Shown: positions 1 through 23,473 of the stretch, in pieces | Position numbering within the stretch: position 1 is the first letter of the stretch | Layout of the letters: each line of letters begins with the position of its first letter | Source: Bifidobacterium vansinderenii | Lineage (GTDB): Bacteria > Actinomycetota > Actinomycetes > Actinomycetales > Bifidobacteriaceae | Direction: 5' to 3' | Assembly (NCBI RefSeq): GCF_002234915.1 | Contig: NZ_NEWD01000025.1 | Coordinates: 1 to 34,719, forward strand | DNA length: 34,719 bases | Program-made: the position numbers and the translations under genes | The notes under the pieces: generated by a model | What the model was told of the DNA's origin: nothing | Databases searched by the model: none | What the model saw: only the letters and a program-made list of their open reading frames with translations

Positions 1-258
<258 letters not shown>

Positions 259-10568: not shown

Positions 10569-10618
10569 GGCTCCCCTCAGTCGGTTGTCGCCGACGGCTC
10601 CCTTCAGGGAGGGGAGCC
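10569..10618 (-). repeat. Two-hairpin repeat, type B, reverse orientation
   Basis: On the minus strand this reads: hairpin I (GGCTCCCCTCCC, loop, GGGAGCC), hairpin II (GTCGG-loop-CCGAC), then the tail CTGAGGGGAG. Hairpin II differs in sequence from other type B copies but still pairs. It lies in the convergent rsmD/trmD gap. Confidence 0.8.
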
Positions 10619-10651
10619 GAGGAACAGGGAGTGACGGCTTGTTTGTGGTGT

Positions 10652-10699
10652 CACCTCATCCGTCACGCTTCGCGTGCCACCTTCCCCTCGAGGGGAAGG
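10652..10699 (-). repeat. Two-hairpin repeat, type A, 48 bp, reverse orientation
   Basis: On the minus strand: CCTTCCCCTCGAGGGGAAGG (hairpin I), TGG, CACGCGAAGCGTG (hairpin II), then ACGGATGAGGTG. It differs from the copy at 11810-11857 by one base in the hairpin I loop region. Together the two bracket trmD in opposite orientation. Confidence 0.9.
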
Positions 10700-10716
10700 A
10701 GAAAGCATAAGAGCTT

Positions 10717-10768
10717 GGCTCCCCTCCGTGGGAGGGGAGCTGGCCGCCGTATGGCGGACTGAGGGGAG
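10717..10768 (+). repeat. Two-hairpin repeat, type B
   Basis: Hairpin I is GGCTCCCCTCC-GT-GGGAGGGGAGC, then TGG. Hairpin II is CCGCC-GTAT-GGCGG, and the tail is ACTGAGGGGAG. It ends about 12 nt beyond the trmD stop codon. The tail GAGGGGAG could also pair with the initial CTCCCCTC, giving an alternative fold. Confidence 0.85.
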
Positions 10769-10779
10769 TCAAGGAGAAG

Positions 10780-11763
10780 CTAGTGGCGGGGGTGCTGGCC
10801 GGAGACGTTCCAGCCCAGGGCCATGAGGGTCTTGCGGTCGGCCTTGCTCAGCGCCTTGCAGTCAAGCTCCTCCACCAGATCCGGGCGAATGCGCGTGGTA
10901 CGTTCCATGGCCTCGTCGCGGCGATAGCGGTCCACCTTGCCGTGATCGCCGCTGGTGAGCACAGGGTCCACGGCGATGCCGCGCCACGTGGCCGGCTTAG
11001 TGAACTGGCGATGCTCGAGCAGCGGATCGCCGGTGTACGACTCCTCGACGATCGACTCGGGGTTGCCCATGAATCCGGGCACGAGTCGCACGATCGCCTC
11101 GATCATAGCGGACACGGCCACCTCGCCGCCGTTGAGCACGTAGTCGCCGATCGAATACTCGCGCACTTCCACGCCCTGCCGCGCATAGTATTCAGGCACG
11201 CGCGCGTCGATGCCTTCATAGCGGCCGCATCCGAACACCAGATGATCAGCGCGTGACAGTTCGGTCGCATCGGCCTGCGTGAACAGCGGCGCCGACGGAT
11301 TGGGGAAAATCAGGATCGGCTTGGGGGAATCGGTCGTCGCCTCGGCCGGTGCGGAATTTGCGATAGCGGGGTCATCCGTGGAATCAACGGAGTTGCCATC
11401 GCCATCATCGGAACCGTTGGAATCATCGACGTTGTCGTCATCGTCGGCACTGTCGTTGGCCTCGTCGTCCGTGCCGATCAGGCGGAAATCGCGCGACTGC
11501 ACGGGCTGGCCGTTATCGTCGAACGACACGGGAGCCAGACCCATGACGTCGTCGAGGCACTGCGCCCATACTTCGGGCTTCATCACCATGCCGGCGCCGC
11601 CGCCGACCGGGGTATCGTCCACGGAATGATGCACGTCGTGCGTCCAGTCACGCAGATTGTGGGCGGTCACACTGAGCAGCCCCTTGTCCTGGGCCTTGCC
11701 GAGCAGACTGAGCTTCAGCACGTCGAAGTACTCGGGAAACACGGAAACAATGTCGATACGCAT
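10780..11763 (-). CDS. trmD: tRNA (guanine(37)-N1)-methyltransferase TrmD
   Basis: TrmD makes m1G37 in tRNAs reading CNN codons and so prevents frameshifting. The protein begins [25 protein letters not shown] and carries the SPOUT trefoil-knot motifs GCGRYEGID (178-186) and [11 protein letters not shown] (204-214). It is 327 residues long against roughly 240-280 for most homologues. The surplus is an acidic Asp/Ser/Asn-rich stretch at about residues 97-147, just before the knot. The open frame extends upstream, but homology fixes the start at 11763. In many bacteria trmD lies directly after rimM; here about 6.4 kb, mostly the sugar locus, separates them. A TAGGCT -10-like box lies 8 nt before the start, so it probably has its own leaderless promoter. 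Confidence 0.94.
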
Positions 11764-11765
11764 AA

Positions 11766-11777
11766 TAGGCAAGCCTA
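11766..11777 (-). promoter_or_regulatory. trmD: trmD promoter region with palindrome
   Basis: TAGGC-AA-GCCTA is a perfect inverted repeat. Its minus-strand reading TAGGCT (11772-11777) can serve as a -10 box 8 nt before the trmD ATG. A protein bound here would cover both -10 and start codon. No -35 box stands out. Confidence 0.4.
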
Positions 11778-11809
11778 CCGTCTGCGCCCGAACTCCCGTC
11801 TTTTCTCGT

Positions 11810-11857
11810 CCTTCCCCTTGAGGGGAAGGTGGCACGCGAAGCGTGACGGATGAGGTG
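11810..11857 (+). repeat. Two-hairpin repeat, type A, 48 bp
   Basis: Hairpin I is CCTTCCCCTTGAGGGGAAGG, followed by TGG. Hairpin II is CACGC-GAA-GCGTG and the tail is ACGGATGAGGTG. It lies in the divergent gap between trmD and the dehydrogenase gene. It is the left, plus-oriented partner of the minus-oriented type A copies at 17870 and 18031 beyond the sugar locus. Confidence 0.9.
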
Positions 11858-11918
11858 CACGCAATCAGCGAATGAATCGACCGCGACGCAGTCGCGCACA
11901 ACCAGAAACCCCACACAT

Positions 11919-11937
11919 CACGAATCGTCGATCCGTG
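11919..11937. promoter_or_regulatory. Imperfect 19-bp palindrome upstream of the dehydrogenase promoter
   Basis: CACG-A-ATCG-T-CGAT-C-CGTG has 8 of 9 pairs around a central T. It lies about 25 nt upstream of the proposed -35 box, where an activator or repressor could bind. A second inverted repeat, AAAAC-N5-GTTTT, is at 11943-11957. The 11764-12146 gap holds only these elements, a type A repeat and the promoter. Confidence 0.4.
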
Positions 11938-11961
11938 CCCATAAAACGTCGTGTTTTCGCC

Positions 11962-12016
11962 TTCCCAAAGCCGCGGGCAGGGGCTATATTATCTTTCGTA
12001 AGTAACTTTAAAAAGT
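11962..12016 (+). promoter_or_regulatory. Promoter and ROK-type operator of the dehydrogenase operon
   Basis: TTCCCA (11962-11967) and TATATT (11985-11990) are 17 nt apart and form a plausible promoter. The palindrome ACTTT-AA-AAAGT (12005-12016) lies just after the predicted transcription start, where bound protein would block initiation or elongation. Nearly the same palindrome is found at 16342-16353 upstream of the ROK gene, so I infer a shared operator. Confidence 0.55.
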
Positions 12017-12146
12017 AAAAAACAAAAGTTGCGAACGCGGCGAGAAAGCACCCGGACGTCGGGCGGCCGACGAACCGGAACATAACAGCAAACCGATCAC
12101 ACGATCAACACCAACGGGAACCTTCCCGCAGAACAAAGGAGTTGCC

Positions 12147-13208
12147 ATGGAAGGAATGATGAAGGCGGCCTACCTGCCCGGAAACAGCACGGTCGATCTG
12201 CGCGAGATCCCGATCCCGAAGCCCGGCTACGGCCAGGTGCTCGTCAAGATGAAGGCGTCCACCATCTGCGGCAGCGACATCCGCGCCATCTACCGCGAGC
12301 ACACCGGCAAGGGCCCGGAGGGCTACCAGAACAAGGTCGCCGGTCACGAGCCGTGCGGTCAGGTCGTTGAGGAAGGCCCGGGCGTGCGTCGCTTCAAGGC
12401 CGGCTCCCGCGTGATCGTCTACCACATCTCCGGCTGCGGTCTGTGCCACGACTGCCGCATGGGCTACCAGATCTCCTGCTCCTCCCCGCTGCGTGCCGCA
12501 TACGGCTGGCAGTGCGACGGCGGCATGGAGGAATACGTGGTGTGCGACGAGAAGGACCTCATTGAGCTGCCCGACGAACTGACCTACACCGACGGCGCAC
12601 AGGTCGCCTGCGGCTTCGGCACCGTCTACGAAGGCATCGAGAAGATCGGCATCTCCGGCAACGATGCGGTGCTGGTCACCGGCCTCGGCCCGGTGGGTCT
12701 CGCCACCCTGATGCTGGCTCGCAAGCTCGGCGCGAACAAGCTCATCGGTGTGGAGAACAACCCCTACCGTCTCGAGCTCGCCCGCAAGATGGGTCTCGCG
12801 GACGTGGTCCTCGACTCCAACGAGAACACCGTCGACGAGATTCTCGACCTGACCGGCGGCCACGGCGTCGAACGCGCCATCGACACTTCCGGTGCGGATC
12901 CGGCCCGTCAGATCGCCATTCGCGCCACCCGCGCCTGGGGACGCATCGCACTAGTCGGCGAAGGCGGCACCGTGCACTTCAACCCGAGCCCGGATCTGCT
13001 GCACGGCCAGAAGACCATCTACGGCAGCTGGGTGACCAGCCTCGCCCGCATGGAGACCCTGGTCGAGGAACTGGTTCGTTGGAACCTGCACCCGGAGGAT
13101 CTCGTCACCGACCGCTTCTCTATCGACGACGTGTCCAAGGCTTACGAGCTGATGGACAAGGGCGAGTGCGGCAAGGTCGCCATCTGCTTCGACGAGGAAC
13201 TCAAGTAG
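12147..13208 (+). CDS. Zinc-dependent medium-chain dehydrogenase (polyol/sugar dehydrogenase type)
   Basis: This 353-residue protein belongs to the zinc medium-chain dehydrogenase family that includes sorbitol and threonine dehydrogenases. Catalytic zinc ligands are visible as C41 (TICGSD) and H67-E68 (GHEPCG). Structural zinc cysteines are C97, C100, C103 and C111. The nucleotide-binding motif is GLGPVG (179-184), and an acidic residue (E203) at the end of the next strand suggests NAD rather than NADP. The substrate cannot be read from sequence; the symporter and cupin nearby point to a sugar, polyol or sugar acid. AAAGGAG lies 6 nt before the ATG, in a leader of about 150 nt. It is the first gene of a plus-strand unit, 24 nt before the DUF4867-like gene. 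Confidence 0.85.
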   Translation: MEGMMKAAYLPGNSTVDLREIPIPKPGYGQVLVKMKASTICGSDIRAIYREHTGKGPEGYQNKVAGHEPCGQVVEEGPGVRRFKAGSRVIVYHISGCGLCHDCRMGYQISCSSPLRAAYGWQCDGGMEEYVVCDEKDLIELPDELTYTDGAQVACGFGTVYEGIEKIGISGNDAVLVTGLGPVGLATLMLARKLGANKLIGVENNPYRLELARKMGLADVVLDSNENTVDEILDLTGGHGVERAIDTSGADPARQIAIRATRAWGRIALVGEGGTVHFNPSPDLLHGQKTIYGSWVTSLARMETLVEELVRWNLHPEDLVTDRFSIDDVSKAYELMDKGECGKVAICFDEELK

Positions 13209-13232
13209 TCGCCCGTCGCAAGGAAACCGACC

Positions 13233-13898
13233 ATGATCCTGCATAACGTACTCACCGAACCGGAGGCATTCGCGCCCTACGGCCGTGTGCTCCCCGACGA
13301 CTACGACTTCAGCCAGCTGATCGGCGTGCTCAACGAGAACACCGACGCGCCGGCCGACGGCGTGGTCTACGTGCCCAGCTTCGACAAACTCGAAGGCCTG
13401 CCCGTGTTCCTGGATCTGCGCGACCGCATCTTCGGCGGTCTGACGATCCAGGCCGGGTACTGCAACGGAACCAACACCACGCTCAACGCGCTGGAATGCC
13501 ACCGTGGCATCGAGGTGCTGGTAGCTGCCGACGACATCGTGCTCATGCTCGGCAAGAAGCAGAACATCGAGATGAACGACGGCGACTACGCGCTCGACAC
13601 CTCCACGATCGAAGCGTTCCTCGTGCCAGCCGGCACGGCCGTGCTCTACTACGAGACGACCATGCACTACGCGCCGGCCACCACTAGAGGATCGTTCCGC
13701 ACGGCGATCGTTCTGGTGGAGGGCACCAACACCGACAAGCCGCTCATCCACCCCGGCAACGAGGAGGATCGCATCCTGTGGGCGCGCAACAAGTGGCTGC
13801 TCGCGCATCCGGACTCCCCGGAGGCGGCTGAAGGCGCCTACGTGGGGCTCAAGGGCAAGAACCTCGACCTTAACGAGGATCTGACCATCCCCGCGTGA
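13233..13898 (+). CDS. DUF4867-like cupin protein
   Basis: This 221-residue protein resembles the uncharacterised DUF4867 family. Its opening LTEPEAFAPYGRVL also recalls the ureidoglycolate lyase (AllA) cupin fold. Candidate metal-site residues follow cupin spacing: H90 and E94 in ECHRGIEVLV, then PAG (132-134) and H145 in VPAGTAVLYYETTMHYAP. There is no signal peptide, so it is probably a cytoplasmic enzyme acting on the product or substrate of the upstream dehydrogenase, for example as a lyase, isomerase or lactone-handling enzyme. That role is inferred from position only. AAGGAAA lies just before the ATG. Codon use is like its neighbour, and the two are surely co-transcribed. Confidence 0.7.
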   Translation: MILHNVLTEPEAFAPYGRVLPDDYDFSQLIGVLNENTDAPADGVVYVPSFDKLEGLPVFLDLRDRIFGGLTIQAGYCNGTNTTLNALECHRGIEVLVAADDIVLMLGKKQNIEMNDGDYALDTSTIEAFLVPAGTAVLYYETTMHYAPATTRGSFRTAIVLVEGTNTDKPLIHPGNEEDRILWARNKWLLAHPDSPEAAEGAYVGLKGKNLDLNEDLTIPA

Positions 13899-13926
13899 GC
13901 GGCCGGCGTCGGTCGTCGCCTGACGA

Positions 13927-13947
13927 ATGACGATGACGATGACGATG
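13927..13947 (+). repeat. Short tandem repeat (ATGACG) x3.5
   Basis: ATGACG is repeated three full times plus ATG, about 30 nt after the DUF4867-like stop codon. It is noncoding and may vary in copy number between strains. Confidence 0.6.
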
Positions 13948-13986
13948 TGGCTGGGCGGGTGAATGTCTGGCTGAGTGGTGTCTGAT

Positions 13987-14036
13987 CCCTCCCCCTGTCG
14001 CGGCTCCGCCCCGACATCCCCCTCCCTCGGAGGGAG
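13987..14036 (-). repeat. Two-hairpin repeat, divergent type C, reverse orientation
   Basis: On the minus strand: hairpin I CTCCCTCCGAGGGAG, a G-rich link, hairpin II TGTCG...CGACA, and a purine tail GGGGGAGGG. Sequence differs from the other type C copies, but the order of elements is the same. Confidence 0.65.
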
Positions 14037-14053
14037 AACATTCCTTCGGGTGT

Positions 14054-14103
14054 GCTCCCTCCGAGGGAGGGAGCTGGCCGGCGGTCGCCGGACTGAGGGA
14101 GGG
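14054..14103 (+). repeat. Two-hairpin repeat, type C
   Basis: Hairpin I is GCTCCCTCCGAGGGAGGGAGC, with TGG sharing its end. Hairpin II is CCGGCG-GT-CGCCGG and the tail is ACTGAGGGAGGG. With the inverted unit at 13987 it forms a head-to-head pair between the cupin and symporter genes. Confidence 0.85.
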
Positions 14104-14197
14104 CCCGACCCCCGTGTCCGCACATCTGCGTCCTGCACGCCATCGATCGTCAACGCCGATCCCCATTCGCAATCTCTCCTGAAGCATCTCCTTCCTC

Positions 14198-14229
14198 ACG
14201 GCTGCGGGCCTGTGCTCGCAGCCGTCTTT
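14198..14229 (+). terminator. Intrinsic terminator or attenuator before the symporter gene
   Basis: ACGGCTGCG (14198-14206) pairs perfectly with CGCAGCCGT (14217-14225), followed by CTTTC. The T-tract is short, so termination may be partial. It lies about 65 nt upstream of the symporter ATG and could separate its transcription from the dehydrogenase-cupin unit. Confidence 0.55.
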
Positions 14230-14291
14230 CCGTATCTCGTGCTCGATGGCGAGCCGGGAACGGCCCCTGTTCTTCGACGCAAAGAGGCATC

Positions 14292-15827
14292 ATGACAGCA
14301 CAACCAACATCCGTATCCACCGCATCCACGTCTCAGGCCGACACCCAGATCAACGTCCAATCCGCATCCTCAACGCAAACCCGATCCAAATCCAACACCC
14401 GTAATTTCGTCTTCTACCTGCTCGGCCTGATCGGCCACGACGTCTTCTACTTCGGCTTCTCCCTCTATCTCATCAAATTCATCACCGGACCGCTCTTCGC
14501 CAGCGGCAGCAAATCATACGACGACCATATGGTCGCCCTCATCTCCGGCATCATCATCGTGGTGCGCATCGTGGAACTCATTCTCGACCCGTTCCTCGGC
14601 ACGCTGATCGACAACACGCGCACCCCGATCGGCAAATTCAAGCCGTGGATCATCATCGGCGGACTGGTCGGATCGGTCAGCTTCGTCATGCTGTTCACCA
14701 CGTTCGGCGGTGCGAACATCAACAATCCCGTGCTCTACGTGGTGCTGTTCACCGTGTTCTTCCTGCTTATGGACTGCTCGTACTCGCTGTACGACATCTC
14801 CATGTGGTCCATGATCCCCGCGCTCTCCGACACCGCCGAAGGCCGTGGAACCGCCACCGCGGTGGGACGACTCGGCGCCGGCGTGGGCCAGATGATCGTC
14901 ACCGCCATGGTCATCCCGTCCGTGTTGCTCGGCGAAGGCTGGTTCGGCAGCGAACGCAACGGCTGGCTGTTCTTCGCCGTGCTCGTGTTCCTGTTCGTCG
15001 TCTCGTCGGTGCTGCTCACGAGCTTCGGCATCAAGGAGGTGGAGTCGCCACTGCGCGCCCACTCGGAGAAGACCAAGTTCAAGGACGTGTTCCGCATCAT
15101 CTTCCACAACGACCAGCTGGCCTGGCTGTCGGTGGCGAGCTTGTGCTACTACTTCGCGCTCGCGCTCACCGCGGCGCTGATGACCTACTACTTCCAGTAC
15201 ATCTACGGCGATGCGGCCAGCTATTCCATGATCTTCGGCCCGGCCACGCTCTCGGCGGTGGTGTCGATCGCGTTCTACCCGTGGCTGATCAGCAAGTTCG
15301 AACGCAAGCCGATCCTGTTCGGCGCGCTCGGCGTGATGCTCGTCTCGTTCGTCGTGTTCTTCCTGGCGCCCACGAACGTGGTGGTGATCGTGGTCGCGTC
15401 GGTCCTGTTCCTCTTCCCGCAGCCGATCATCTGGGCGTCGCTGACCCTGGCCCTCACCGACACGATCGAATACGGGCAGTGGAAGACGGGGGAGCGGCAC
15501 GAAAGCCTGACCCTGGCGCTGCGTCCGATGCTCGACAAGTTCTCCGGCGCGTTGTCGAACGGCATCGTCGGTCTGGTGGCCGTGGCGTGTGGTATGACCG
15601 GCGCCGCCACGTTCGCCGACATCACGCCGGGCGGCCGGTTCCTGTTCAAGGCGATCATGTGCGGCGTGCCGGTGGTGCTGGTGCTGCTCAGCATGCTGGT
15701 CTACCACTGCAAGTTCACGCTGACCATGGCCCGGCACGAACAGATCGTCAAGGAGCTTACCGAGGGCCTGTCTCAGGACGAGGGGCAGTCGGACGGGTCA
15801 TCGCGCTCCGATACTGTGCAGGCGTGA
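14292..15827 (+). CDS. GPH-family (glycoside-pentoside-hexuronide) cation symporter
   Basis: This 511-residue protein has a polar Ser/Thr/Gln-rich N-terminus (about 1-38) followed by about 12 hydrophobic segments. The first helix reads GLIGHDVFYFGFSLYLIKFI. The phrases DPFLGTLIDNTRTPIGKFKPWIIIGG and DTIEYGQWKTGERHES are typical of the MelB/GPH family, which takes up sugars or glycosides with sodium or protons. The substrate is not predictable from sequence. AAAGAGG lies about 6 nt before the ATG. Its 3' end overlaps the end of the convergent araC-type gene by 71 bp. It is most likely the uptake arm of the dehydrogenase-cupin locus. Confidence 0.87.
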   Translation: MTAQPTSVSTASTSQADTQINVQSASSTQTRSKSNTRNFVFYLLGLIGHDVFYFGFSLYLIKFITGPLFASGSKSYDDHMVALISGIIIVVRIVELILDPFLGTLIDNTRTPIGKFKPWIIIGGLVGSVSFVMLFTTFGGANINNPVLYVVLFTVFFLLMDCSYSLYDISMWSMIPALSDTAEGRGTATAVGRLGAGVGQMIVTAMVIPSVLLGEGWFGSERNGWLFFAVLVFLFVVSSVLLTSFGIKEVESPLRAHSEKTKFKDVFRIIFHNDQLAWLSVASLCYYFALALTAALMTYYFQYIYGDAASYSMIFGPATLSAVVSIAFYPWLISKFERKPILFGALGVMLVSFVVFFLAPTNVVVIVVASVLFLFPQPIIWASLTLALTDTIEYGQWKTGERHESLTLALRPMLDKFSGALSNGIVGLVAVACGMTGAATFADITPGGRFLFKAIMCGVPVVLVLLSMLVYHCKFTLTMARHEQIVKELTEGLSQDEGQSDGSSRSDTVQA

Positions 15828-16314: not shown

Positions 16315-16341
16315 GCCGTCCTCCTTGACGTTTTGTAATAA

Positions 16342-16353: not shown

Positions 16354-16463
16354 AGTTTAGAAAAGAATATCACAAATCATCTGCAAAAGTGCCGGAACGC
16401 GGCAAAACCACTGTGCCGCTTCCGTACAATGAGAAATCAGCGAGTGACAAGGAGCGTTCGGCG

Positions 16464-17759: not shown

Positions 17760-17771
17760 CGCATTCGCCGT

Positions 17772-17822
17772 GGCTCCCCTCCGTGGGAGGGGAGCTGGCC
17801 GCCGCAGGCGGGCTGAGGTGAG
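17772..17822 (+). repeat. Two-hairpin repeat, type B
   Basis: Hairpin I is GGCTCCCCTCC-GT-GGGAGGGGAGC, then TGG. Hairpin II is CCGCC-GCA-GGCGG and the tail is GCTGAGGTGAG. It starts 12 nt after the ROK stop codon. Confidence 0.85.
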
Positions 17823-17869
17823 GAGGTGCTCGGTGGGATTGGACGGCTGCGCCGACCGTGTTGTTTTAT

Positions 17870-17917
17870 CACCTCATCCGTCACGCTGCGCGTGCCACCT
17901 TCCCCTCAAGGGGAAGG
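17870..17917 (-). repeat. Two-hairpin repeat, type A, 48 bp, reverse orientation
   Basis: On the minus strand: CCTTCCCCTTGAGGGGAAGG, TGG, CACGC-GCA-GCGTG, ACGGATGAGGTG. It is almost identical to the copy at 11810 but inverted, and only the hairpin II loop differs. Confidence 0.9.
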
Positions 17918-17929
17918 CATGAGAGCTGT

Positions 17930-17980
17930 GGCTTCCCCTTGAGGGAGGGGAGCTGGCCGCCGTAGGCGGTCTGAGGGGAG
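17930..17980 (+). repeat. Two-hairpin repeat, hybrid of types A and B
   Basis: The left arm GGCTTCCCCTTGAGGG resembles type A. The remainder (GGGGAGCTGG, CCGCC-GTA-GGCGG, TCTGAGGGGAG) is type B. This suggests recombination or conversion between the two types. Confidence 0.75.
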
Positions 17981-18030
17981 GGGTTGCGAGGGGTTTGGTC
18001 GATGTTCCCCTCAGCCCGTGTTTGTTTGTT

Positions 18031-18078
18031 CACCTCATCCGTCACGCTTTGCGTGCCACCTTCCCCTCAAGGGGAAGG
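18031..18078 (-). repeat. Two-hairpin repeat, type A, 48 bp, reverse orientation
   Basis: On the minus strand: CCTTCCCCTTGAGGGGAAGG, TGG, CACGC-AAA-GCGTG, ACGGATGAGGTG. A short B-like remnant (TCCCCTCAGCC) lies at 18006-18016. The 17760-18126 gap thus holds four repeat units and the rimM hairpin. Confidence 0.9.
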
Positions 18079-18093
18079 AGAGAGTTGAGAATG

Positions 18094-18118
18094 CGGTTCC
18101 CCACAGAGAGGGGAACCG
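18094..18118 (-). terminator. Hairpin downstream of rimM
   Basis: CGGTTCCCC (18094-18102) pairs perfectly with GGGGAACCG (18110-18118) around a 7-nt loop. It lies just beyond the rimM stop on the minus strand. There is no strong T-tract, but the position suits the end of the rpsP-khpA-rimM transcript. Confidence 0.5.
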
Positions 18119-18126
18119 GGAAGTGA

Positions 18127-18708
18127 TTAGCGATCCTGGAGAAGGCCGTTGGGGGGAGTGAGGACGAGATAGCCCTCCTCCAGATCCACTTCGGGCACGA
18201 TCTCCTCCACGAAGGGGACCAGCGACTCGGCGCCGCTGGGCTCGGTGATCTGCAGTAGATCCTGTGCGGGGCCGTCGATCACATCGGACACCTTGCCGGC
18301 CACCACATACGATTCGGCAGTGGCGTCGGCGTCGGCAGAATCGCCGTCCGACTCGTAGATGCGGGCCTCGAGACCAATAAGGTCCTCCATGTAGAACCCC
18401 TCATCCTCATCATCGTCGGAATACACGGGTTCCACATACAGATCGGTGCCGTTCAGCGCCTCCGACGCGTTACGGTCGGCAACGCCCTTGAACAACACGA
18501 TCCAACGTTCCTTGAATTTGCGTGACTTCGCGACCGTAAACTCACGGCCGTCGCGGGTCAGCAGCACGGAACCGGGAGCGAAACGCTCCTCCGGTTCGTC
18601 GGTGAAGACACGGACGTTCACTTCGCCCTTCAGTCCCTGAGCGCGTCCGATACGGCAGACCCTCAGCAGCTCGCGCTGCTGAGGGTCCTCGTTATGCTGT
18701 TCAGCCAT
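18127..18708 (-). CDS. rimM: Ribosome maturation factor RimM
   Basis: This 193-residue protein has the RimM N-terminal beta-barrel (LLRVCRIGRAQGLKGEVNVRVFTDEPEERF, from about residue 14). A PRC-barrel C-terminal half contains EDLIGLEARIYE and GKVSDVIDGPAQDLLQI, ending LEEGYLVLTPPNGLL. RimM helps assemble the 30S head and binds ribosomal protein S19. The linker between the domains is rich in Asp and Glu (YSDDDEDEG). The gene starts 3 nt after the khpA stop and is the last gene of the rpsP-khpA-rimM unit. trmD, its usual neighbour, lies about 6.4 kb away. Confidence 0.93.
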   Translation of the reverse strand: MAEQHNEDPQQRELLRVCRIGRAQGLKGEVNVRVFTDEPEERFAPGSVLLTRDGREFTVAKSRKFKERWIVLFKGVADRNASEALNGTDLYVEPVYSDDDEDEGFYMEDLIGLEARIYESDGDSADADATAESYVVAGKVSDVIDGPAQDLLQITEPSGAESLVPFVEEIVPEVDLEEGYLVLTPPNGLLQDR

Positions 18709-18711
18709 CGC

Positions 18712-18942
18712 TCAGCGGACATCCATGATGTCGACACGAACCTTGTGATCGGACAGCGCCTGCACCACGGTGCGAATGGCGTTGGCGGTGCGACCGCCAC
18801 GTCCGATGACGCGTCCGATGTCCTCCGGGTTCACCCGCACGCGAAGCAGTTCGCCGCGGTTGTTCTCGTGGGACTTCACGGAAACGTCGTCCGGGAAATC
18901 AACGATGTTCTTGATCAGGTGTTCGACGGCTTCGGCAAGCAT
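18712..18942 (-). CDS. khpA: KH-domain RNA-binding protein KhpA
   Basis: This 76-residue protein is a single KH domain. The GxxG-type loop appears in DIGRVIGRGGRTANAIRTVVQAL, the family signature (formerly YlqC). KhpA works with KhpB in Gram-positive bacteria to bind RNA and influence cell division and elongation. It starts 2 nt after the rpsP stop and ends 3 nt before rimM, so the three genes are translationally linked. Codon use and length are ordinary. Confidence 0.93.
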   Translation of the reverse strand: MLAEAVEHLIKNIVDFPDDVSVKSHENNRGELLRVRVNPEDIGRVIGRGGRTANAIRTVVQALSDHKVRVDIMDVR

Positions 18943-18944
18943 GA

Positions 18945-19406
18945 TTACTCAGCCTTCTCCTCGGCGGCTTCCTCGGCCGGAGCCTCGGCTTCTTCAGCGG
19001 CCTTGGCGGCTTCGGCCTCAGCCTTGGCCTTGGCTTCAGCTTCGGCCTTGGCGGCCTTCAGCTTCTGGGCCTCATCGGCGGCGGCAGCCACGCGGGCTTC
19101 GGCATCCGGGCCTTCCTCGGCCACCTTCAGCGTGCCCTCGGCACCCGGCAGACCCTTGAACTTCTGCCAGTCACCGGTGATGTTCAGCAGCTTGAAGACG
19201 GCTTCGGTCGGCTGGGCGCCAACGCCGAGCCAGTACTGAGCGCGGTCAGACTTGATCTGGATGAGCGAGGGCTGCTTGTTGGGATCGTAGATACCGATCT
19301 CCTCGATGGTCTTGCCATCGCGGGCCTTACGGGAATCCATGATCACAATGCGGTAGAAGGCGTAGTGCTTCTTACCCAGGCGCTTCAGACGAATCTTGGT
19401 TGCCAA
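18945..19406 (-). CDS. rpsP: 30S ribosomal protein S16
   Basis: The first 85 or so of its 153 residues are canonical S16 ([23 protein letters not shown]...[10 protein letters not shown]). The last 65 or so form an Ala/Glu/Lys-rich helical tail ([20 protein letters not shown]...) beyond the bacterial core, as in several actinobacterial S16 proteins. The start codon is TTG at 19406; AAGGAGA lies about 7 nt upstream and homology fixes the start. It heads the rpsP-khpA-rimM unit. Its leader contains a 9-bp hairpin with a one-base bulge (19443-19466), and a -10-like TACAAT lies further upstream. Confidence 0.95.
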
Positions 19407-19442
19407 AATGGCTCTCCTTATGTATTAGGGGTGTGCATCTTT

Positions 19443-19466
19443 GGTTTCGTGTGGGGCACGGAAACC
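19443..19466 (-). promoter_or_regulatory. Leader hairpin upstream of rpsP
   Basis: GGTTTC and GTG (19443-19451) pair with CAC and GAAACC (19457-19466), leaving one bulged G. It is in the 5' untranslated region on the minus strand, about 35 nt before the start codon. It could be a ribosomal-protein leader or the end of the upstream transcript. Confidence 0.4.
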
Positions 19467-19531
19467 GCGATCCACGTGTTCCTCATAAGAGACGGAGTTA
19501 GAGGGCGCCACCTCTTACGAATAACCTGAAT

Positions 19532-19537
19532 ATTGTA
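19532..19537 (-). promoter_or_regulatory. Predicted -10 box of the rpsP operon
   Basis: The minus-strand reading is TACAAT, one mismatch from consensus. It lies about 125 nt upstream of rpsP and downstream of the endonuclease-family stop. No clear -35 box is seen. Confidence 0.4.
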
Positions 19538-19594
19538 ACCACATAACCCCGACATTCCTCGGCGGGTCGTGGGCTGTGGCCACGGTCTGGTGTG

Positions 19595-21058
19595 CTATGC
19601 CACCTCGAGTTCCACGACAAGGGCCTTGTGGTCGGTTTTCGGCACCGTATAGGCGTGCGCGGAGACCGCGCGGATGCCCTGCGTATGCAGCACGTGGTCG
19701 ATCTCGATGAGCGACGGGAACGTGGGCCAGCTGGCCGGGAACGTCGTGTTGAATCCGGCGTGCAGCTCGAACGACGAATCCGCAAGACCCGATCCCTGCC
19801 GCAGCGCGTCGCGGAAGCTCGGATGATAGATGCTCGAGTTCATGTCGCCCATCACGACGGCCGCGTGATGCGGCACGGGACCGCGATCCGGCTCGGAGAA
19901 GTCCGGCAGCTCGATGACGGCGGTCTCGGTGACATCAGGCGTCGGCTCGGCGTTCGACGAATCCTCGTCGGAATCATCCTTCATGCCGCGCGTGATGATG
20001 TCGGCGAGCTCGGGCGGAAGCCCGGCCAGCAGATCGGCGTTGGGCGTCACATCATCGCTGTCGGTGCTGCCATTGGCGACAATGCTGGCGTCGTCGGTGT
20101 TCGCATCGTCGTCGGCGCAGCAGTTGAATCCCTCCTCGTTGCGGCTGTCGGCGCGCAACGCGAACTGGCCGAGCGCACGCACGCCGTCGCTCCAGTCCTT
20201 GCCGCTGCGCGGTGGCGACTTGGGATGCACGGAACTGAACTCCACGCACTGGTCGCCGATGCGAACGGTGGCCACCGGGGCGGCCGCGGCACTGATGTTC
20301 ACCGACGAATCGCCGAAGATCGCCGGCTTGAGACGCATAAACAGAGCGTTCGATCCCGCATTGTCGTCGTCACGCACCGCGCCGAGCACACGATACGGCA
20401 GTTCATCGCCGATATGCGAGATGTCAAGACGCTTGATGAACGCGGTGTTGACCTCCTGCACGGCGAGGATGTCGATGTTCTCCTGCTTGACCAGGTGCAT
20501 GATCGTACCGGTGTCTGCGCGACCGTAGCGCGTGTTGAGCGTCATCACGCGGATCGTGTGATGATCGTCGGTCGAAGCGGCTGATTTTAAGTCAGCTGCT
20601 TCGACCGAATCCGCATCGTCGTCCACAGCCTGTGGGGAAGCGGAAGAAGTCTGGGGATAATCGTCAGCCGACTCTGCGGAATCCTCCGAGGATGCGCCGG
20701 CTTCGTCGGCGAACGAGCTGTCAGCGTACTCGCCATCGACCGGCAGCGTCTGTACCGGCACACCGAGAATAGGGGACAGCGCACTCGGAATCGGCGCAAC
20801 ATAGCCGATCTGCCAGGCCACCTGCACCAGCAGCAGCACAACAGTCACGCCGAACTGCGGCCAGTTGCCAGTGAATCCGGTCGCCGGCAGCAGCAGCACG
20901 AGCGGTACCACAAGCAGCGGAATCAGTGCGATCACCTCGGGCAGAGGACGGTACTGATCCCAGCCCGCAGGCAGGTACTTCAACGCCATCCAACACGTGA
21001 TCAACACGATGACGATCCAAAAAAGCACGAGGCGTCTCCTTGCTGTAGTCGTTGCCAT
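19595..21058 (-). CDS. Membrane-anchored endonuclease/exonuclease/phosphatase-family protein
   Basis: Three hydrophobic segments (about residues 8-28, 42-60 and 68-88) anchor this 487-residue protein. A polar acidic linker (about 105-167) leads to an EEP domain. Catalytic landmarks are N174 (MTLNTRYG), E202 (AVQEVN), H278 (SSVHPKSP), D405 and N407 (MGDMNSS), D454-H455 (IDHVL) and D476-H477 (TDHKAL). The family uses a divalent metal to cut phosphodiester or phosphomonoester bonds, and the domain is predicted to face outside. Residues about 305-392 form an acidic insertion within the catalytic fold, between the H278 and D405 motifs. A consensus TATAAT lies upstream on the same strand. The substrate is unknown: nucleic acid, lipid headgroup or other phosphoester are all possible. 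Confidence 0.85.
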   Translation of the reverse strand: MATTTARRRLVLFWIVIVLITCWMALKYLPAGWDQYRPLPEVIALIPLLVVPLVLLLPATGFTGNWPQFGVTVVLLLVQVAWQIGYVAPIPSALSPILGVPVQTLPVDGEYADSSFADEAGASSEDSAESADDYPQTSSASPQAVDDDADSVEAADLKSAASTDDHHTIRVMTLNTRYGRADTGTIMHLVKQENIDILAVQEVNTAFIKRLDISHIGDELPYRVLGAVRDDDNAGSNALFMRLKPAIFGDSSVNISAAAAPVATVRIGDQCVEFSSVHPKSPPRSGKDWSDGVRALGQFALRADSRNEEGFNCCADDDANTDDASIVANGSTDSDDVTPNADLLAGLPPELADIITRGMKDDSDEDSSNAEPTPDVTETAVIELPDFSEPDRGPVPHHAAVVMGDMNSSIYHPSFRDALRQGSGLADSSFELHAGFNTTFPASWPTFPSLIEIDHVLHTQGIRAVSAHAYTVPKTDHKALVVELEVA

Positions 21059-21106
21059 GATTGCTGTTTCACCGTTCGTGGCTACCTGTTTTTGTCCGAA
21101 TTGCGA

Positions 21107-21112
21107 TTATAC
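21107..21112 (-). promoter_or_regulatory. Predicted -10 box of the EEP-family gene
   Basis: The minus strand reads TATAAT, a perfect consensus hexamer, about 50 nt upstream of the start codon. The -35 region is weak. Confidence 0.5.
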
Positions 21113-21216
21113 GAACCGGTTTTGGAGGATTTGCGCATACGGGAAAGACCACGTGGATTCCCGACCGTGTCTTTACGAATCGTTCGAATGGAAAACCTTC
21201 ACAGGGCATAAAAAAT

Positions 21217-21265
21217 GCTTCCCCTTGAGGGGAAGCTGTCACGCGAATGCGTGACTGATGAGGTG
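21217..21265 (+). repeat. Two-hairpin repeat, type A variant
   Basis: Hairpin I is GCTTCCCCTTGAGGGGAAGC, then TGT. Hairpin II is CACGC-GAAT-GCGTG and the tail is ACTGATGAGGTG. It faces the inverted copy at 21341, with 75 bp between them. Confidence 0.85.
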
Positions 21266-21340
21266 GGTTGCGGTCGGAACGACTGCATAGACATCGTATC
21301 GTCGAAGACGATTCCGAACATCTAGCTGTGACCCGCACAC

Positions 21341-21386
21341 CACCTCATCAGTCGGCTACGCCGACAGCTTCCCCTCGAGGGGAAGC
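21341..21386 (-). repeat. Two-hairpin repeat, type A variant, reverse orientation
   Basis: On the minus strand: GCTTCCCCTCGAGGGGAAGC, TGT, CGGC-GTA-GCCG, ACTGATGAGGTG. Relative to the facing copy at 21217, hairpin II has a different sequence yet still pairs, while both flanks are conserved. Confidence 0.85.
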
Positions 21387-21449
21387 AATAGAGGGGGCGG
21401 CCGACAGCGTCCTGCAAGTGCTGACGGTCTTCGACCGCGTTCTTCTTGC

Positions 21450-21520
21450 TCGCCTGTCGGCTCGCCTTCGCCTAAAAATGCCGCTGGCATTTTCTTTACG
21501 GCTCAGCCCCTCGAGGGGAA
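21450..21520 (-). terminator. Terminator-like hairpin and repeat fragment downstream of ffh
   Basis: AAAATGCC (21475-21482) and GGCATTTT (21486-21493) form an 8-bp stem with a 3-nt loop. On the minus strand it is followed by T residues, so it can terminate ffh transcription. CCCCTCGAGGGG (21507-21518) beside it looks like a hairpin I remnant of the repeat family. The remainder of 21059-21535 holds two repeat units and the EEP promoter. Confidence 0.6.
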
Positions 21521-21535
21521 ACGGGGGAGATGGGA

Positions 21536-23191
21536 TCAGCGACCGAAGAGGCCTCCGATGCCGCCGCCGAGGTTCGGCGGAAGCTCAGGCTGGCCGTTGC
21601 CGCCGAGCGCGTTCTGCAGACCCGCCGGAAGCGCCGGATTCTGCGGCTGCTTCTGGAACGCGGAACCGCCGCTCTTGCTCGAACCGGAGCCCTTGCCGCT
21701 CAGGCGCTCGCGCAATGCCTTCTCCTCGGCCTCGCGCTTCATCGGGTTTCCGGACTTGCCGCCCTTCTTCTTGCCCTTCTTACCCTTGCGCGCGCTCTTG
21801 CCGCCAGGACCGCCGAAGCCGCCCATGCCCGGCACGCCGCGAGAACCGTTGCTCATGCGCTTCATCATCTTGGATGCCTGCTCAAAGCGCTGCAGCAGCG
21901 CGTTCACCGCGGACACGGTGTTGCCCGAACCGTAGGCGATACGCGCACGACGCGAACCGTCGATGATCTTCGGATTGCGACGCTCCTCCGGGGTCATCGA
22001 ACGGATGATGGCCTCGGTGCGGTCCACCTCCTTCTCGTCGAACGCCTCAAGCTCCTTGCGATGCTGGGCCATACCCGGAATCATGCCGAGCAGGTTCTTC
22101 ATCGGACCAAGCTGGCGCACCTGCTGCAGCTGCTCCAGGAAGTCGTCGAGACCGAAGCTGCCATCGGAGATCTTCTCGGCGGCCTTGCGGGCCTCCTCCT
22201 CGTCGAACTGCTTCTGCGCCTGCTCGATCAGGGTGAGAATATCGCCCATGTCGAGGATTCGCGAGGCCATACGATCGGGGTGGAACACCTCGAAGTCCTT
22301 CAGGCCCTCGCCGTTGGACGCGAACAGGATCGGCTTGCCGGTCACGCTCGCCACAGACAGCGCGGCACCGCCACGGGCATCGCCATCGAGCTTGGAAAGC
22401 ACCACGCCGGTGAAGTCCACGCCCTCGTCGAACGCCTTGGCCGTCTGCACCGCATCCTGACCGATCATCGCATCGATCACGAACAGGATCTCGTTCGGGT
22501 TCACGGCGTCGCGGATGTCACGCGCCTGCTTCATCAGCGCCTCGTCCACGCCCAGACGACCGGCGGTATCGATGATCACCGTGTCATACAGCTTGGTCTT
22601 GGCCAGCTCGATCGAATCCTTGGCCACCTTCACCGGATCACCGGTGGTCAGGCCGGGAACGGTCACATCGTCGCCGCCATCGGACTGCACGCCCTTCTCC
22701 GGCGCGTACACGGGAACGCCCGCGCGCTCGCCCACCACCTGCAGCTGGGTCACAGCGTTCGGACGCTGAAGATCGGCCGCCACCAGCAGCGGCGTGTGAC
22801 CGGCGTCCTTGAGCCAGTAGCCGAGCTTGCCGGCGAGCGTGGTCTTACCGGCACCCTGCAGACCGGCGAGCATGATGATCGTCGGCGGGTTCTTGGCAAA
22901 GTTCAGCGGACGGTCCACGCCGGCGCCCAGGATCTGCGTGAGCTCGTCGTTGACGATCTTCACCACCTGCTGGGCGGGATTGAGCGCCTGCGAGACCTCC
23001 TCGCCCAGCGCGCGCTCGCGCACGTGGGCGGTGAAGGAACGCACCACGTCGAGCGCCACATCGGCGTCGAGCAGTGCTCGGCGGATTTCGCGGATCGTGC
23101 CGTCGATGTCCGCGTCGGTCAGCTTGCCCTTGGAGCGCAGATGCTTGAACGCGCCCGAGAGCCTATCGGTCAAAGAAGTAAAAGCAGCCAT
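21536..23191 (-). CDS. ffh: Signal recognition particle protein Ffh (SRP54)
   Basis: Ffh binds 4.5S RNA and signal sequences and directs ribosomes to FtsY and the Sec translocon. The 551-residue protein has the N domain (about 1-100). The G domain carries Walker A GLQGAGKTT (about 110-118), DTAGRLG and the closing SKLDGDARGG. The Met-rich M domain contains KNLLGMIPGM, the RNA-binding phrase SRRARIAYGSGNTVSAVNALL, and KMMKRMS. The tail is long and rich in Gly and Lys (GGFGGPGGKSARKGKKGKKKGG), ending in a Gly/Pro/Leu-rich stretch. A TAGACT -10-like box lies 10 nt before the ATG, implying a very short leader. The long open frame on the opposite strand is a shadow. Confidence 0.97.
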   Translation of the reverse strand: MAAFTSLTDRLSGAFKHLRSKGKLTDADIDGTIREIRRALLDADVALDVVRSFTAHVRERALGEEVSQALNPAQQVVKIVNDELTQILGAGVDRPLNFAKNPPTIIMLAGLQGAGKTTLAGKLGYWLKDAGHTPLLVAADLQRPNAVTQLQVVGERAGVPVYAPEKGVQSDGGDDVTVPGLTTGDPVKVAKDSIELAKTKLYDTVIIDTAGRLGVDEALMKQARDIRDAVNPNEILFVIDAMIGQDAVQTAKAFDEGVDFTGVVLSKLDGDARGGAALSVASVTGKPILFASNGEGLKDFEVFHPDRMASRILDMGDILTLIEQAQKQFDEEEARKAAEKISDGSFGLDDFLEQLQQVRQLGPMKNLLGMIPGMAQHRKELEAFDEKEVDRTEAIIRSMTPEERRNPKIIDGSRRARIAYGSGNTVSAVNALLQRFEQASKMMKRMSNGSRGVPGMGGFGGPGGKSARKGKKGKKKGGKSGNPMKREAEEKALRERLSGKGSGSSKSGGSAFQKQPQNPALPAGLQNALGGNGQPELPPNLGGGIGGLFGR

Positions 23192-23296
23192 AATGACCCC
23201 AAGTCTACCGACTGTGCGGGAGAACGGGAATCAAGGCGTTCTTTGCACTTGAACAGTTGTCTTGTCGGGGTGATTTGGGGTGTTGATGGAGTGGAT

Positions 23297-23348
23297 CCCT
23301 CCCTCAGTCCGATCTGACGATCGGCCAGCTCCCTCCCTCGGAGGGAGC
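23297..23348 (-). repeat. Two-hairpin repeat, type C, reverse orientation
   Basis: On the minus strand: GCTCCCTCCGAGGGAGGGAGC, TGG, CCGATC-GTCA-GATCGG, ACTGAGGGAGGG. Hairpin II is quite unlike those of the copies at 14054 and 23424, but pairing is perfect. Confidence 0.85.
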
Positions 23349-23380
23349 ACGGTACATATGTTCAGACCCTGCTGAGTTGG

Positions 23381-23405
23381 GCAGCTCCCTCCCTTGGAGA
23401 GAGCA
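23381..23405 (-). repeat. Truncated type C repeat (hairpin I only)
   Basis: Only the hairpin I portion (minus strand GTGCTCTCTCCAAGGGAG, then GGAGCTG) is recognisable. The hairpin II and tail portions are missing or decayed. It lies between two full copies. Confidence 0.6.
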
Positions 23406-23423
23406 CGCAGCTTGTTTTCTTTG

Positions 23424-23473
23424 TGCTCCCTCCGAGGGAGGGAGCTGGCGCGCGAAGCGCGACTGAGGGAGGG
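23424..23473 (+). repeat. Two-hairpin repeat, type C
   Basis: Hairpin I is GCTCCCTCCGAGGGAGGGAGC, then TGG. Hairpin II is CGCGC-GAA-GCGCG and the tail is ACTGAGGGAGGG. The ffh/ABC-F gap (23192-23554) contains this unit, an inverted unit, a fragment and little else. Confidence 0.85.

Follow-up and report, generated by a model that had tools for sequence, protein, structure and literature searches.

A dispersed two-hairpin repeat of Bifidobacterium vansinderenii with a mirror-image purine tail: a candidate hairpin-hinged DNA triplex

Relation to described repeats

The formation and relevance of intramolecular DNA triplexes in living cells have yet to be settled. The closest described systems are the BoxC/PIT/TM-ECO class II repeats (Hoyne and Maher; Holder et al. 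2015, PMC4666352), which have the order pyrimidine, purine, purine third strand and of which TM-ECO has been described from 262 proteobacterial genomes. The TM repeats of E. coli hardly differ from one another and so offer little scope for comparison, and in vivo DMS footprinting of them did not support a stable triplex (PMC4666352). Short dispersed extragenic palindromes with frequent inverted neighbours and hundreds of copies per genome are also known as REP/BIME and as REPINs with RAYT, and the CGTC-tagged REPs (Di Nocera et al. 2013, PMC3733652) carry CGTC before and CCA after a variable hairpin; in the parts of the latter paper that we consulted, stems almost always begin with A-T pairs and no third arm is described. 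In addition, GNA and GNNA loops form very stable DNA mini-hairpins, for example d(GCGAAGC), which the consulted parts of PMC4686876 present as a synthetic or aptamer module.

The window analysed in the present study, a stretch of 34,719 nucleotides of B. vansinderenii, contains 13 complete units at 10569-23474 on both strands, together with a few fragments holding hairpin I only (Table 1). The initial annotation had counted about fifteen; the family itself proved to be real, the complete number being 13, and the six hairpin II sequences that it quoted were all found where it had placed them. A covariance model built from six of the window units gave the seven others E values of 1e-10 to 9e-4, unit 1 reaching only 0.13, as well as 17 further matches up to E 1 that were mostly on the opposite strand or partial; after this single use, patterns and scripts replaced the covariance search.

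Table 1. Complete units in the window. Triads are arm positions on the antiparallel code (maximum 9; C over T counted as T.C:G); the last column gives the situation in the relative G002.
Unit	Position	Strand	Type	Hinge or hairpin II	Triads	G002
1	10569..10618	-	Arm from hinge CGAGGGAAG, tail TGAGGGGAG	Hinge CGTC..GAC	8/9	Absent
2	10652..10700	-	K (AAGG/ACGG)	ACGC-GAA-GCGT	8/9	Absent
3	10717..10768	+	G	CGCC-GTAT-GGCG	9/9	Absent
4	11809..11857	+	K	ACGC-GAA-GCGT	8/9	Same unit at orthologous place
5	14053..14102	+	C	CGGC/GCCG	9/9	Orthologue with different loop
6	17772..17822	+	G	CGCC-GCA-GGCG	8/9	Orthologous
7	17870..17918	-	K	ACGC-GCA-GCGT	8/9	Absent
8	17930..17980	+	G	CGCC-GTA-GGCG	9/9	Absent
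9	18031..18079	-	K	ACGC-AAA-GCGT	8/9	Absent
10	21216..21265	+	T (AAGC/ACTG)	ACGC-GAAT-GCGT	8/9	Orthologue, one loop change
11	21341..21387	-	T	GGC-GTA-GCC	8/9	Orthologue with wholly different hairpin II
12	23297..23350	-	C	CGATC-GTCA-GATCG	9/9	One T-A pair changed to C-G, both sides changed
13	23424..23474	+	C	GCGC-GAA-GCGC	9/9	Orthologous

These units resemble TM-ECO (PMC4666352) in being G/C-rich and intergenic, in forming some inverted pairs, in showing no strand bias, in their uneven copy number between close relatives and in a tail with TGAGG and a T over an A:T pair. However, the second loop of TM-ECO is 3 nt long (TTA or CCG; 1-6 nt in the ITxF search), whereas here a covarying hairpin, often with a GNA loop, takes its place, and the aligned units differ in both arms and hinge from the TM-ECO/BoxC consensus CCCTCNCCC N3-6 GGGNGAGGG N3 GGGNGAGGG given in PMC4666352, a paper whose main text contains none of the words Bifidobacterium, Faecalibacterium or Clostrid*. 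The REP systems with RAYT differ more widely, as hairpin II of the aligned units carries no GTAG tag at its foot, the genome has no Y1 transposase and a mirror third arm is present. With the CGTC-tagged REPs the units share a variable hairpin preceded by CGTC and followed by CCA, but only in ACGG-tail units read on the other strand, ACTG-tail units carrying AGTC there; Bifidobact* is absent from the main text of PMC3733652. Many hairpin IIs have the same loop and closing pair as the mini-hairpins of PMC4686876 (in the parts consulted), here as a natural hinge. Literature searches of the open-access PMC collection listed no description of this repeat family.

The arm-tail code and the variable hinge

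The tail of each unit is the mirror image of the purine arm of hairpin I, written in the antiparallel (reverse-Hoogsteen) triad code, in which an arm G takes a tail G, A takes A or T, and C takes T. Passages of PMC10609763 give these as the triads of the antiparallel motif, T.C:G included, and call the single hydrogen bond of T.C:G insufficient for a stable triplex. Units were collected by a search that placed no condition on the tail, which returned 627 raw matches (reversed control 292); 388 passed a filter on purine arm, stem and loop (reversed control 7, none with at least seven triads), yielding 339 non-redundant units with 88 distinct arm-tail types, all related by descent so that the counts are not independent events. 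Over the 88 types, 7.51 of nine positions fit the mirror code, as against 5.30 for permuted tails, and none of 5000 permutations reached the observed value. The first position was G/G in 176 of the 339 units, C/T in 135, A/A in 22 and another combination in six. The sixth position was off the code (arm G, tail A) in 200 units, 197 of them with the GAAG arm of the K and T types.

Asymmetric arms keep the mirror as well (GAGAGGGG/GAGAGGGG, GAGGGAAA/GAGGGATT and AAGGGGAC/AAGGGGTT), and, GAAGGGG aside, 36 of 44 asymmetric types scored at least 7 of 9; the remaining eight, with scores no higher than 6, were excluded from none of the counts. Scores for a direct repeat and for Watson-Crick pairing likewise exceeded permutation (5.51 vs 5.01 and 5.30 vs 4.84, 0/1000 in each case), an excess of the kind expected if many arms read alike in both directions. 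The stretches of the B. vansinderenii genome used here had been picked for many pattern matches, and the loci from other genomes by a K-type pattern that included hinge and tail. Among units lying outside these picking patterns, the code accounted for 193 of 216 cells in the species' own stretches (24 of 121 units, 15 of them belonging to a third class, A/A, not specified by any of the patterns) and for 548 of 630 cells at the other loci (70 of 187 units, first position on the code in 68 of the 70). In the converse direction, when purine hairpins were taken as the starting point, 154 of 304 within the species' own stretches (reversed 1 of 14) and 317 of 879 at the other loci (reversed 21 of 175) were followed by a mirror tail; for the 154 own tails the median gap was 18 nt, with 131 at 16-21 nt and 132 at 15-21 nt.

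Hairpin II lies in this gap, and the proposal in the initial annotation that its structure rather than its sequence is kept was borne out. Fits to the flanks alone in 408 kb gave 130 places, of which 119 had a stem of at least four pairs, with 29 different stems (a count made without a shuffle control). When gaps were chosen by hairpin I and tail only, such stems were present in 98 of 125 own gaps (shuffled 3.0%) and in 121 of 203 gaps at the other loci (shuffled 2.2%), the latter hinge counts being biased by the picking pattern, which included hinge and tail. The covariation test that the annotation had called for gave scores above shuffles in two equal-length alignments comprising 22 and 25 of the 121 own units (0.331 vs 0.087 and 0.235 vs 0.060; 0/500 shuffles reaching the observed score for either), a result conditional on the stem-requiring search from which the aligned units came. 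With the hinge ignored, the letters of the 125 own gaps were mostly T, G, T/G, C at the start (95, 96, 118 and 102) and G, A, C at the end (99, 91 and 103). Three-nucleotide loops were GNA in 44 of 65 own units and 60 of 87 at the other loci (TNC in one each), and the closing pair was C-G in 64 of the 65 and 86 of the 87. Hairpin II covaries and prefers C(GNA)G loops, which are known from DNA mini-hairpins; such loops together with the purine-triplex code argue that the folding molecule is single-stranded DNA and not RNA.

A proposed hairpin-hinged triplex

We consider it likely, from the sequence comparisons, that each unit encodes an intrastrand triplex of the class II purine motif, hinged by a hairpin. 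The pyrimidine and purine arms of single-stranded DNA would pair as hairpin I; the second hairpin, variable in sequence (TG[T/G]C, stem, often a GNA or GNNA loop, stem, GAC), would reverse the direction of the backbone; and the purine-rich tail would then occupy the major groove of hairpin I as an antiparallel third strand, forming G.G:C, A.A:T or T.A:T triads and T.C:G beside the hinge. The triplex may form once the purine-rich strand is exposed during replication or transcription, acting as a transient block, and the units may persist because the fold is copied or used, most probably as a REP/BoxC-like selfish repeat that depends on structure.

The class II order of 5' pyrimidine arm, purine arm and 3' reverse-Hoogsteen strand is present in all 13 window units and in the 339 units, and no window unit has more than one third-strand mismatch (8-9 of 9) provided that T.C:G is allowed; when it is disallowed, C/T units gain one further mismatch. 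The arm-tail gap, 15-21 nt in 132 of 154 own-stretch cases and occupied by a hairpin, falls outside the class II loop limits of 1-6 nt (ITxF) and 0-10 nt (Hoyne) given in PMC4666352, and a search limited to short loops would miss such a hairpin-hinged family. Relative to BoxC/PIT/TM, the new element reads as the replacement of the 3-nt second loop by a covarying hairpin. In several arm classes, hundreds of copies and at least two phyla, arm and tail change together by the third-strand code, and these conserved letter rules suggest that evolution preserves a three-stranded DNA shape; conservation of the hinge letters, and of TGAGG in the tail, goes beyond what the fold needs. If borne out, this would constitute evolutionary evidence for a triplex and not merely for a sequence motif, and the units would offer ready sets of natural triplex variants for testing. 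A bolder reading, which we put forward tentatively and rate at somewhat below even, is that a selfish DNA family of gut bacteria crosses phyla and owes its success to a triplex formed by its DNA in the cell, selection having kept the third-strand code, T.C:G beside the hinge included, together with a hairpin hinge that is freely rewritten, and that some factor recognizes the three-stranded knot.

Distribution and alternative explanations

The initial annotation had confined the units to 10.5-23.5 kb, but they occur throughout the genome, in about 320-350 copies by pattern counts. GGAGCTGKCN{6,30}CTGAKGR matched 193 times (reversed control 1), GAAGSTGKCN{6,30}CKGATGAGG 157 times (control 0) and GRAGSTGKCN{5,20}GACKGAKGR 322 times (control 0), and with 0-1 control matches for each pattern the family is not due to chance. 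They are mostly extragenic and their neighbours mostly inverted, as is the case for REPs. Divergent gene pairs are avoided, holding four of 120 placed units yet 10352 of 71565 intergenic bases, and beside co-directional genes the two orientations number 45 and 34. Copy number is erratic, from 0 to 387 among nine genomes of Bifidobacterium, and the family fills intergenic space in some gut species of this genus; similar units, assigned by record title, were found in Clostridia and Negativicutes with a patchy distribution, in agreement with the suggestion that they occur in other phyla. In genome G008 the two strands carry 52 and 33 units, and neighbouring identical copies are present. At E 1e-5 a C-type unit found no match among plasmids, nor did a K-type unit among phages, each being a weak test with a single short query.

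The best-surviving alternative, although we regard it as unlikely, is a REP-like element whose hairpins are recognized in trans by a Y1/HUH or similar enzyme, the mirror tail being part of the substrate; such a single-strand transposase could be compatible with the triplex fold. It is suited by the hundreds of dispersed copies, by the inverted arrangement of neighbours (of 47 pairs within 250 bases, 26 have hairpin I inside, 17 have the tails inside and four are direct), and by the range of copy number within the genus together with the patchiness in other phyla. At one locus of G002 (L249, ~14915-14995) an extra unit lies within a direct repeat of ~14 bases that overlaps the unit's own arm, but at the other sites compared by eye (G000, G002 and G007) the differences involve clusters or entire spacers, and single units with clean ends are not seen. 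Moreover, the Y1 transposase family PF01797 had no match in the species' own genome, B. callimiconis, B. simiarum or G082. Among 39 genomes (its own and relatives) it matched in two, G006 and G038, and among the nine genomes of the genus only in G006, which itself has no units. Of 21 unit-bearing genomes, 12 had a Y1 match at E <= 0.001, 11 of them over the cut-off; a script check of 32 Y1 loci, 30 of them from unit-bearing genomes, found a unit in none of the flanks of up to 1.5 kb. Linkage to RAYT/Y1 was rejected on this basis, and the unlinked Y1 transposase earlier envisaged is likewise not supported.

It is improbable that the fold is unselected, with template switching (that is, quasi-palindrome correction) rewriting hairpin II and gene conversion homogenizing the units. 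The G002 orthologue of unit 11, where hairpin II is wholly different yet perfect, fits such rewriting, and the neighbouring identical copies in G008 fit homogenization. However, asymmetric arms keep mirror tails, and template copying would be expected to yield inverted or direct repeats rather than mirror ones.

Still less probable is the RNA stability or termination element raised in the initial annotation, a transcribed two-hairpin mRNA 3' end. The avoidance of divergent gene pairs is as such an element would show, and RNA folding yields both hairpins in nine of 11 units, but orientation to co-directional genes stands at 45 against 34, a terminator scan found no excess (10 sites vs 7.8, sd 2.9, shuffled; they touch two of 13 units, one unit and the edge of another), and the arm-tail code is that of the purine-motif triplex, which is stated not to form in RNA (PMC4666352). 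No Rfam family reached its cut-off in the unit region, the one weak match being whalefall-1 (20.7 bits vs 37); the window's two Rfam matches at gathering score are rRNA and lie outside this region. The hammerhead ribozyme core comprises CUGANGA with GAAA and a third stem. A hammerhead suggested by CUGAUGAG in T-type tails was rejected, as the core is missing in K, C and G tails and the unit region gave no Rfam family at its cut-off; the hammerhead-like CTGATGAG is likewise not in the K, C and G types.

Least credible of all is the fold switch once proposed, in which tail and 3' arm would compete to pair with the first arm, giving two alternative Watson-Crick folds: many C- and G-type arms are near-identical when reversed and so permit it, unit 1 adopts the tail/first-arm pairing by free energy and this pairing beats permuted tails, but asymmetric arms pair poorly while the mirror holds (CGAGAGGGG with TGAGAGGGG, mirror 9 and Watson-Crick 4 of 9), and the mirror (third-strand) relation fits better, scoring 7.51 of 9 in a single fixed register, whereas Watson-Crick pairing scores 5.30, or 6.44 when G-T is allowed, in the best of seven registers.

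Two-hairpin units and their variable hinge

The window contains 13 complete two-hairpin units, on both strands, each consisting of hairpin I (a pyrimidine and a purine arm), a sequence-variable hairpin II that serves as a hinge, and a purine-rich tail. The initial annotation had recognized this shared plan, although with a somewhat higher number of units (approximately 15), and had confined the family to 10.5–23.5 kb. The latter does not hold: in the 3.11 Mb assembly (68 contigs, the window being contig 18), pattern searches gave 193 matches to the C/G types, 157 to the K/T types and 322 to a general pattern, against 1, 0 and 0 respectively in reversed controls, and the family is therefore genome-wide.

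Locations of the units and associated features (L-numbers denote fetched loci; G002 is a relative in the genus)
Feature	Location	Remark
Units 1–13	window 10569-23474	complete
Hairpin-I-only fragments	window 13988-14038, 18098-18120, 21505-21551, 23380-23402	no proper hairpin II or tail
A/A class (GAGATGTC..GACAGAGGGAG)	about L199:8503-8558; same place in G002 (L249)	22/339 units A/A at first position
Orthologous unit with differing hairpin I type	L249 ~9990-10050; L199 ~8640-8690	G-type in G002, C-type in B. vansinderenii
23S rRNA gene, 3' end	window 1-261	
5S rRNA gene	window 434-550	
Rfam match, whalefall-1 (unit 10 area)	window 21215-21265	sub-threshold, 20.7 bits vs cut-off 37

All six hairpin II examples quoted earlier were correct, and the claim that this hairpin keeps pairing while its letters change was borne out. 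Searching 408 kb of the B. vansinderenii genome with the flanks only, we obtained 130 matches, 119 of which contain a stem with four or more pairs (G-T pairs permitted), with 29 distinct stems. Where a gap of 13–28 nt separates a purine hairpin from a mirror tail, a stem this long was present in 98 of 125 distinct cases in the B. vansinderenii stretches (3.0% when shuffled) and in 121 of 203 at the other loci (2.2%). Covariation scores in ungapped alignments of 22 units (21 K/T types and one C type) and of 25 C-type units were 0.331 and 0.235, compared with 0.087 and 0.060 after shuffling (0/500 as high in each case), and were at most 0.060 when the partner column was shifted by 1–3; as the aligned units had been selected by a search demanding both stems, the unconditioned stem measures weigh more. 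The second hinge pair was non-standard in 11/22 and 13/25 of these units, and C-type hairpin I was almost invariant, with seven of nine pairs never varying.

Comparison with G002 (90–97% identity in aligned blocks >1 kb) revealed orthologous units with the same stem for units 4, 5, 6, 10 and 13, and a different hairpin II for units 11 and 12. In unit 12 a T-A pair has become C-G by a double change, and in unit 11 the hairpin II at the orthologous place is wholly different, yet perfect. In G002 the fragment at 18098 likewise appears, by eye, to carry C-G in place of T-A, with both letters changed.

A mirror code between purine arm and tail

The search by which units were collected placed no condition on the tail and returned 627 raw matches in 1.94 Mb (reversed control, 292), of which a purine-arm, stem and loop filter kept 388 (reversed control, 7), giving a non-redundant set of 339. 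When the purine arm is read from the hinge inward and the tail from the hinge outward, G meets G, A meets A or T, and C meets T. Among these 339 units, which are copies related by descent and so not independent events, the first position was G/G in 176, C/T in 135, A/A in 22 and other in 6; the fourth was A/T in 197, G/G in 129, A/A in 8 and other in 5; and the ninth was A/T in 127, G/G in 145 and T/T in 24, with scattered others.

Over 88 distinct types, a mean of 7.51 of nine positions was on code, compared with 5.30 for permuted tails (maximum 5.80 in 5000). Scored at the most favourable of seven registers, direct repetition reached 5.51, and Watson–Crick pairing with the first arm 5.30, or 6.44 with G-T permitted; the first two values exceed their own permutations (5.01 and 4.84) because many arms read alike in both directions. 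An alternative fold in which the tail pairs with the first arm, as had been suggested, therefore falls short of the mirror relation. Besides the common GAAGGGG arm, 36 of 44 asymmetric arm types (the asymmetric types include GAGAGGGG and GAGGGAAA) had at least seven of nine positions on code. As strand copying produces direct and inverted repeats but not a mirror, the fact that asymmetric arms still match their tails suggests selection acting on the fold.

The stretches of B. vansinderenii had been picked for abundant matches to two patterns and the other loci fetched with the K-type pattern, and units outside these patterns also follow the code: 193/216 cells in the 24 of 121 B. vansinderenii units matching neither pattern, and 548/630 cells (68/70 at the first position) in the 70 of 187 units from other loci. 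Of the 24, 15 belong to a third class, in which an A next to the hinge faces a tail A and which no pattern specified. In a converse scan, with purine hairpins alone as the criterion and a mirror tail sought within 45 nt, such a tail followed 154 of 304 hairpins in B. vansinderenii stretches, 131 of them at gaps of 16–21 (reversed, 1/14), and 317 of 879 at other loci (reversed, 21/175). Many of the tailless B. vansinderenii hairpins are probably opposite-strand readings of self-complementary hairpins.

Overall, 1027/1089 cells were on code in B. vansinderenii stretches, 250/279 in other Bifidobacterium stretches and 1461/1683 at other loci, and an arm G facing a tail A at the sixth position made up 36/62, 9/29 and 155/222 of the respective misses. 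This break, a tail A over G:C in the K/T types, is alike in Bifidobacterium and at the other loci. TGAGG is also found in the E. coli TM tail, according to PMC4666352, and together these sequence features hint at a common origin or a protein contact.

Proposed intrastrand triplex and probable preference for single-stranded DNA

The arm–tail code equals that of antiparallel purine-motif triads, given in PMC10609763 as A.A:T or T.A:T and G.G:C, and we therefore read the units as class II purine-motif intrastrand triplexes. The same source describes T as the natural base able to meet C:G, with one hydrogen bond, judged insufficient for a stable triplex. By reasoning, a pyrimidine-motif triplex formed by the opposite strand would permit A~A but not the frequent A~T or C~T.

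The sequences show a conserved design, in which two hairpins are joined by a mirror tail that obeys a third-strand code, and the hinge loops are of DNA type. Exposure of the purine-rich strand would let hairpin II form and turn the strand, and the tail would then dock on hairpin I; the folded knot could stall polymerases, and stalling in vitro has been reported for PIT elements, as cited in PMC4666352. Judged by sequence, the family would represent a new variety of intrastrand-triplex repeat, working like BoxC, PIT and TM-ECO. The arm order is the same in these repeats, for which PMC4666352 reports triplex formation by oligonucleotides, melting at 70–82 degrees, and locations between genes, with five pairs of inverted neighbours among the 23 in E. 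coli MG1655. That source presents them as without known function or vehicle and linked to local instability, and describes in vivo footprints as not showing a stable triplex for these E. coli repeats. As given in PMC4666352, those repeats have a 3-nt second loop and ITxF covers loops of 1–6 nt, so that the present units, with a hairpin as hinge, lie outside the range searched. REP/RAYT and CGTC-REP systems, as described in PMC3733652, differ from the family in tag, enzyme and third arm. We also noted 22 short-gap (2–10 nt) class II candidates at loci L005–L164 (reversed control, 7), which resemble the E. coli repeats more closely in design; in one example TA separates the purine arm from a G-rich tail.

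Among 3-nt hairpin II loops, 44/65 in B. vansinderenii and 60/87 elsewhere were GNA, and 64/65 and 86/87 were closed by C-G, the complementary TNC occurring once per set; 4-nt loops were GNNA in 11/23 and 12/24, with the RNA-type GNRA in 3 and 4. GNA/GNNA loops are described as extraordinarily stable DNA mini-hairpins (PMC4686876), and according to PMC4666352 RNA does not form purine-motif triplexes. These points favour a fold of single-stranded DNA over one of RNA.

All 13 window units are extragenic provided that the trmD-like gene, whose longest open frame would span unit 4, begins at 11763; Pfam names among nearby genes include tRNA_m1G_MT, RimM, SRP54, MFS_2 and ABC_tran. Of 147 pattern places in 21 stretches, a simple gene caller put 21 within genes, with 6 at edges and 120 placed. 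Of the placed ones, 37 lay between convergent, 79 between co-directional and 4 between divergent genes (14866, 46347 and 10352 intergenic bases respectively), with orientations of 45 vs 34 beside co-directional genes. A terminator scan gave no excess (10 sites vs 7.8, sd 2.9, in shuffles); of the unit-linked sites, one coincides with unit 10 on the opposite strand and one touches the edge of unit 3. Neither the scan nor the orientation favours the proposed role in RNA termination.

Occurrence and turnover across genomes

Across nine Bifidobacterium genomes the general pattern had 322 (B. vansinderenii), 387, 186, 164, 93, 85, 35, 0 and 0 matches. In match counts and listed coordinates G002 agrees with B. 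callimiconis 2028B, and in counts G003 agrees with B. simiarum TRI 7. Of the two without matches, G006 and G007, the latter has 86–91% identity to B. vansinderenii in compared genes, whereas five unit-bearing genomes have only 76–85% (pieces >200 bases). In the Actinomycetota, 58 of 296 genomes had a match; only B. vansinderenii and G082, a member of another family, stand apart from the rest, which have 1–3. G082 has 20 matches, and nearly all of the 13 listed are hairpin-like. With one genome per species, the exact K-type pattern occurs in at least 116 stretches, and the matches listed come, by record title, mostly from Clostridia and Oscillospiraceae assemblies, together with Butyrivibrio and Anaerovibrio isolates, Selenomonas assemblies and three Bifidobacterium stretches, in agreement with the earlier suggestion of similar strings in unrelated gut bacteria. 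Twenty of the genomes listed have 3–387 matches each (control, 0–1). Even sampling of 299 genomes in the phylum to which a Butyrivibrio belongs gave 27 with a match, the Butyrivibrio (46) and G420 (7, six hairpin-like) standing out; a small number of single matches, including one in G380, seem genuine. These uneven counts indicate a patchy family, which also has matches in 44 IMG/VR stretches. Structure-dependent selfish copying would best fit the erratic copy numbers, and the host may make use of units at gene ends.

Two three-unit clusters of the window are absent from G002, and a further stretch of 22 kb has both shared units and units confined to one genome; G007 has no units in either orthologous stretch. 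At one G002 site an additional unit is flanked by a direct repeat, approximately 14 bases long, that overlaps the arm of the unit itself; this may reflect an insertion or the trace of a deletion. The median intergenic length difference between the two species was 50.5 bases with units and 8 without (12 regions in each group; p 0.004, one-sided, and p 0.02 for the relative difference), a measure that partly restates unit gain and loss.

By eye, orthologous intergenic regions of G007 (L253, L167) contain other repeats, GAATCCGAAGGA and a CTGCGGGTTTG.. family, as if another repeat took the place of the units. On contig C5 of genome G008, one strand carries 13 of the 16 matches, and there are adjacent units with identical sequence, which suggests local duplication. 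Hairpin II is similar in both genomes at the orthologous unit whose hairpin I type differs, as if units exchange parts.
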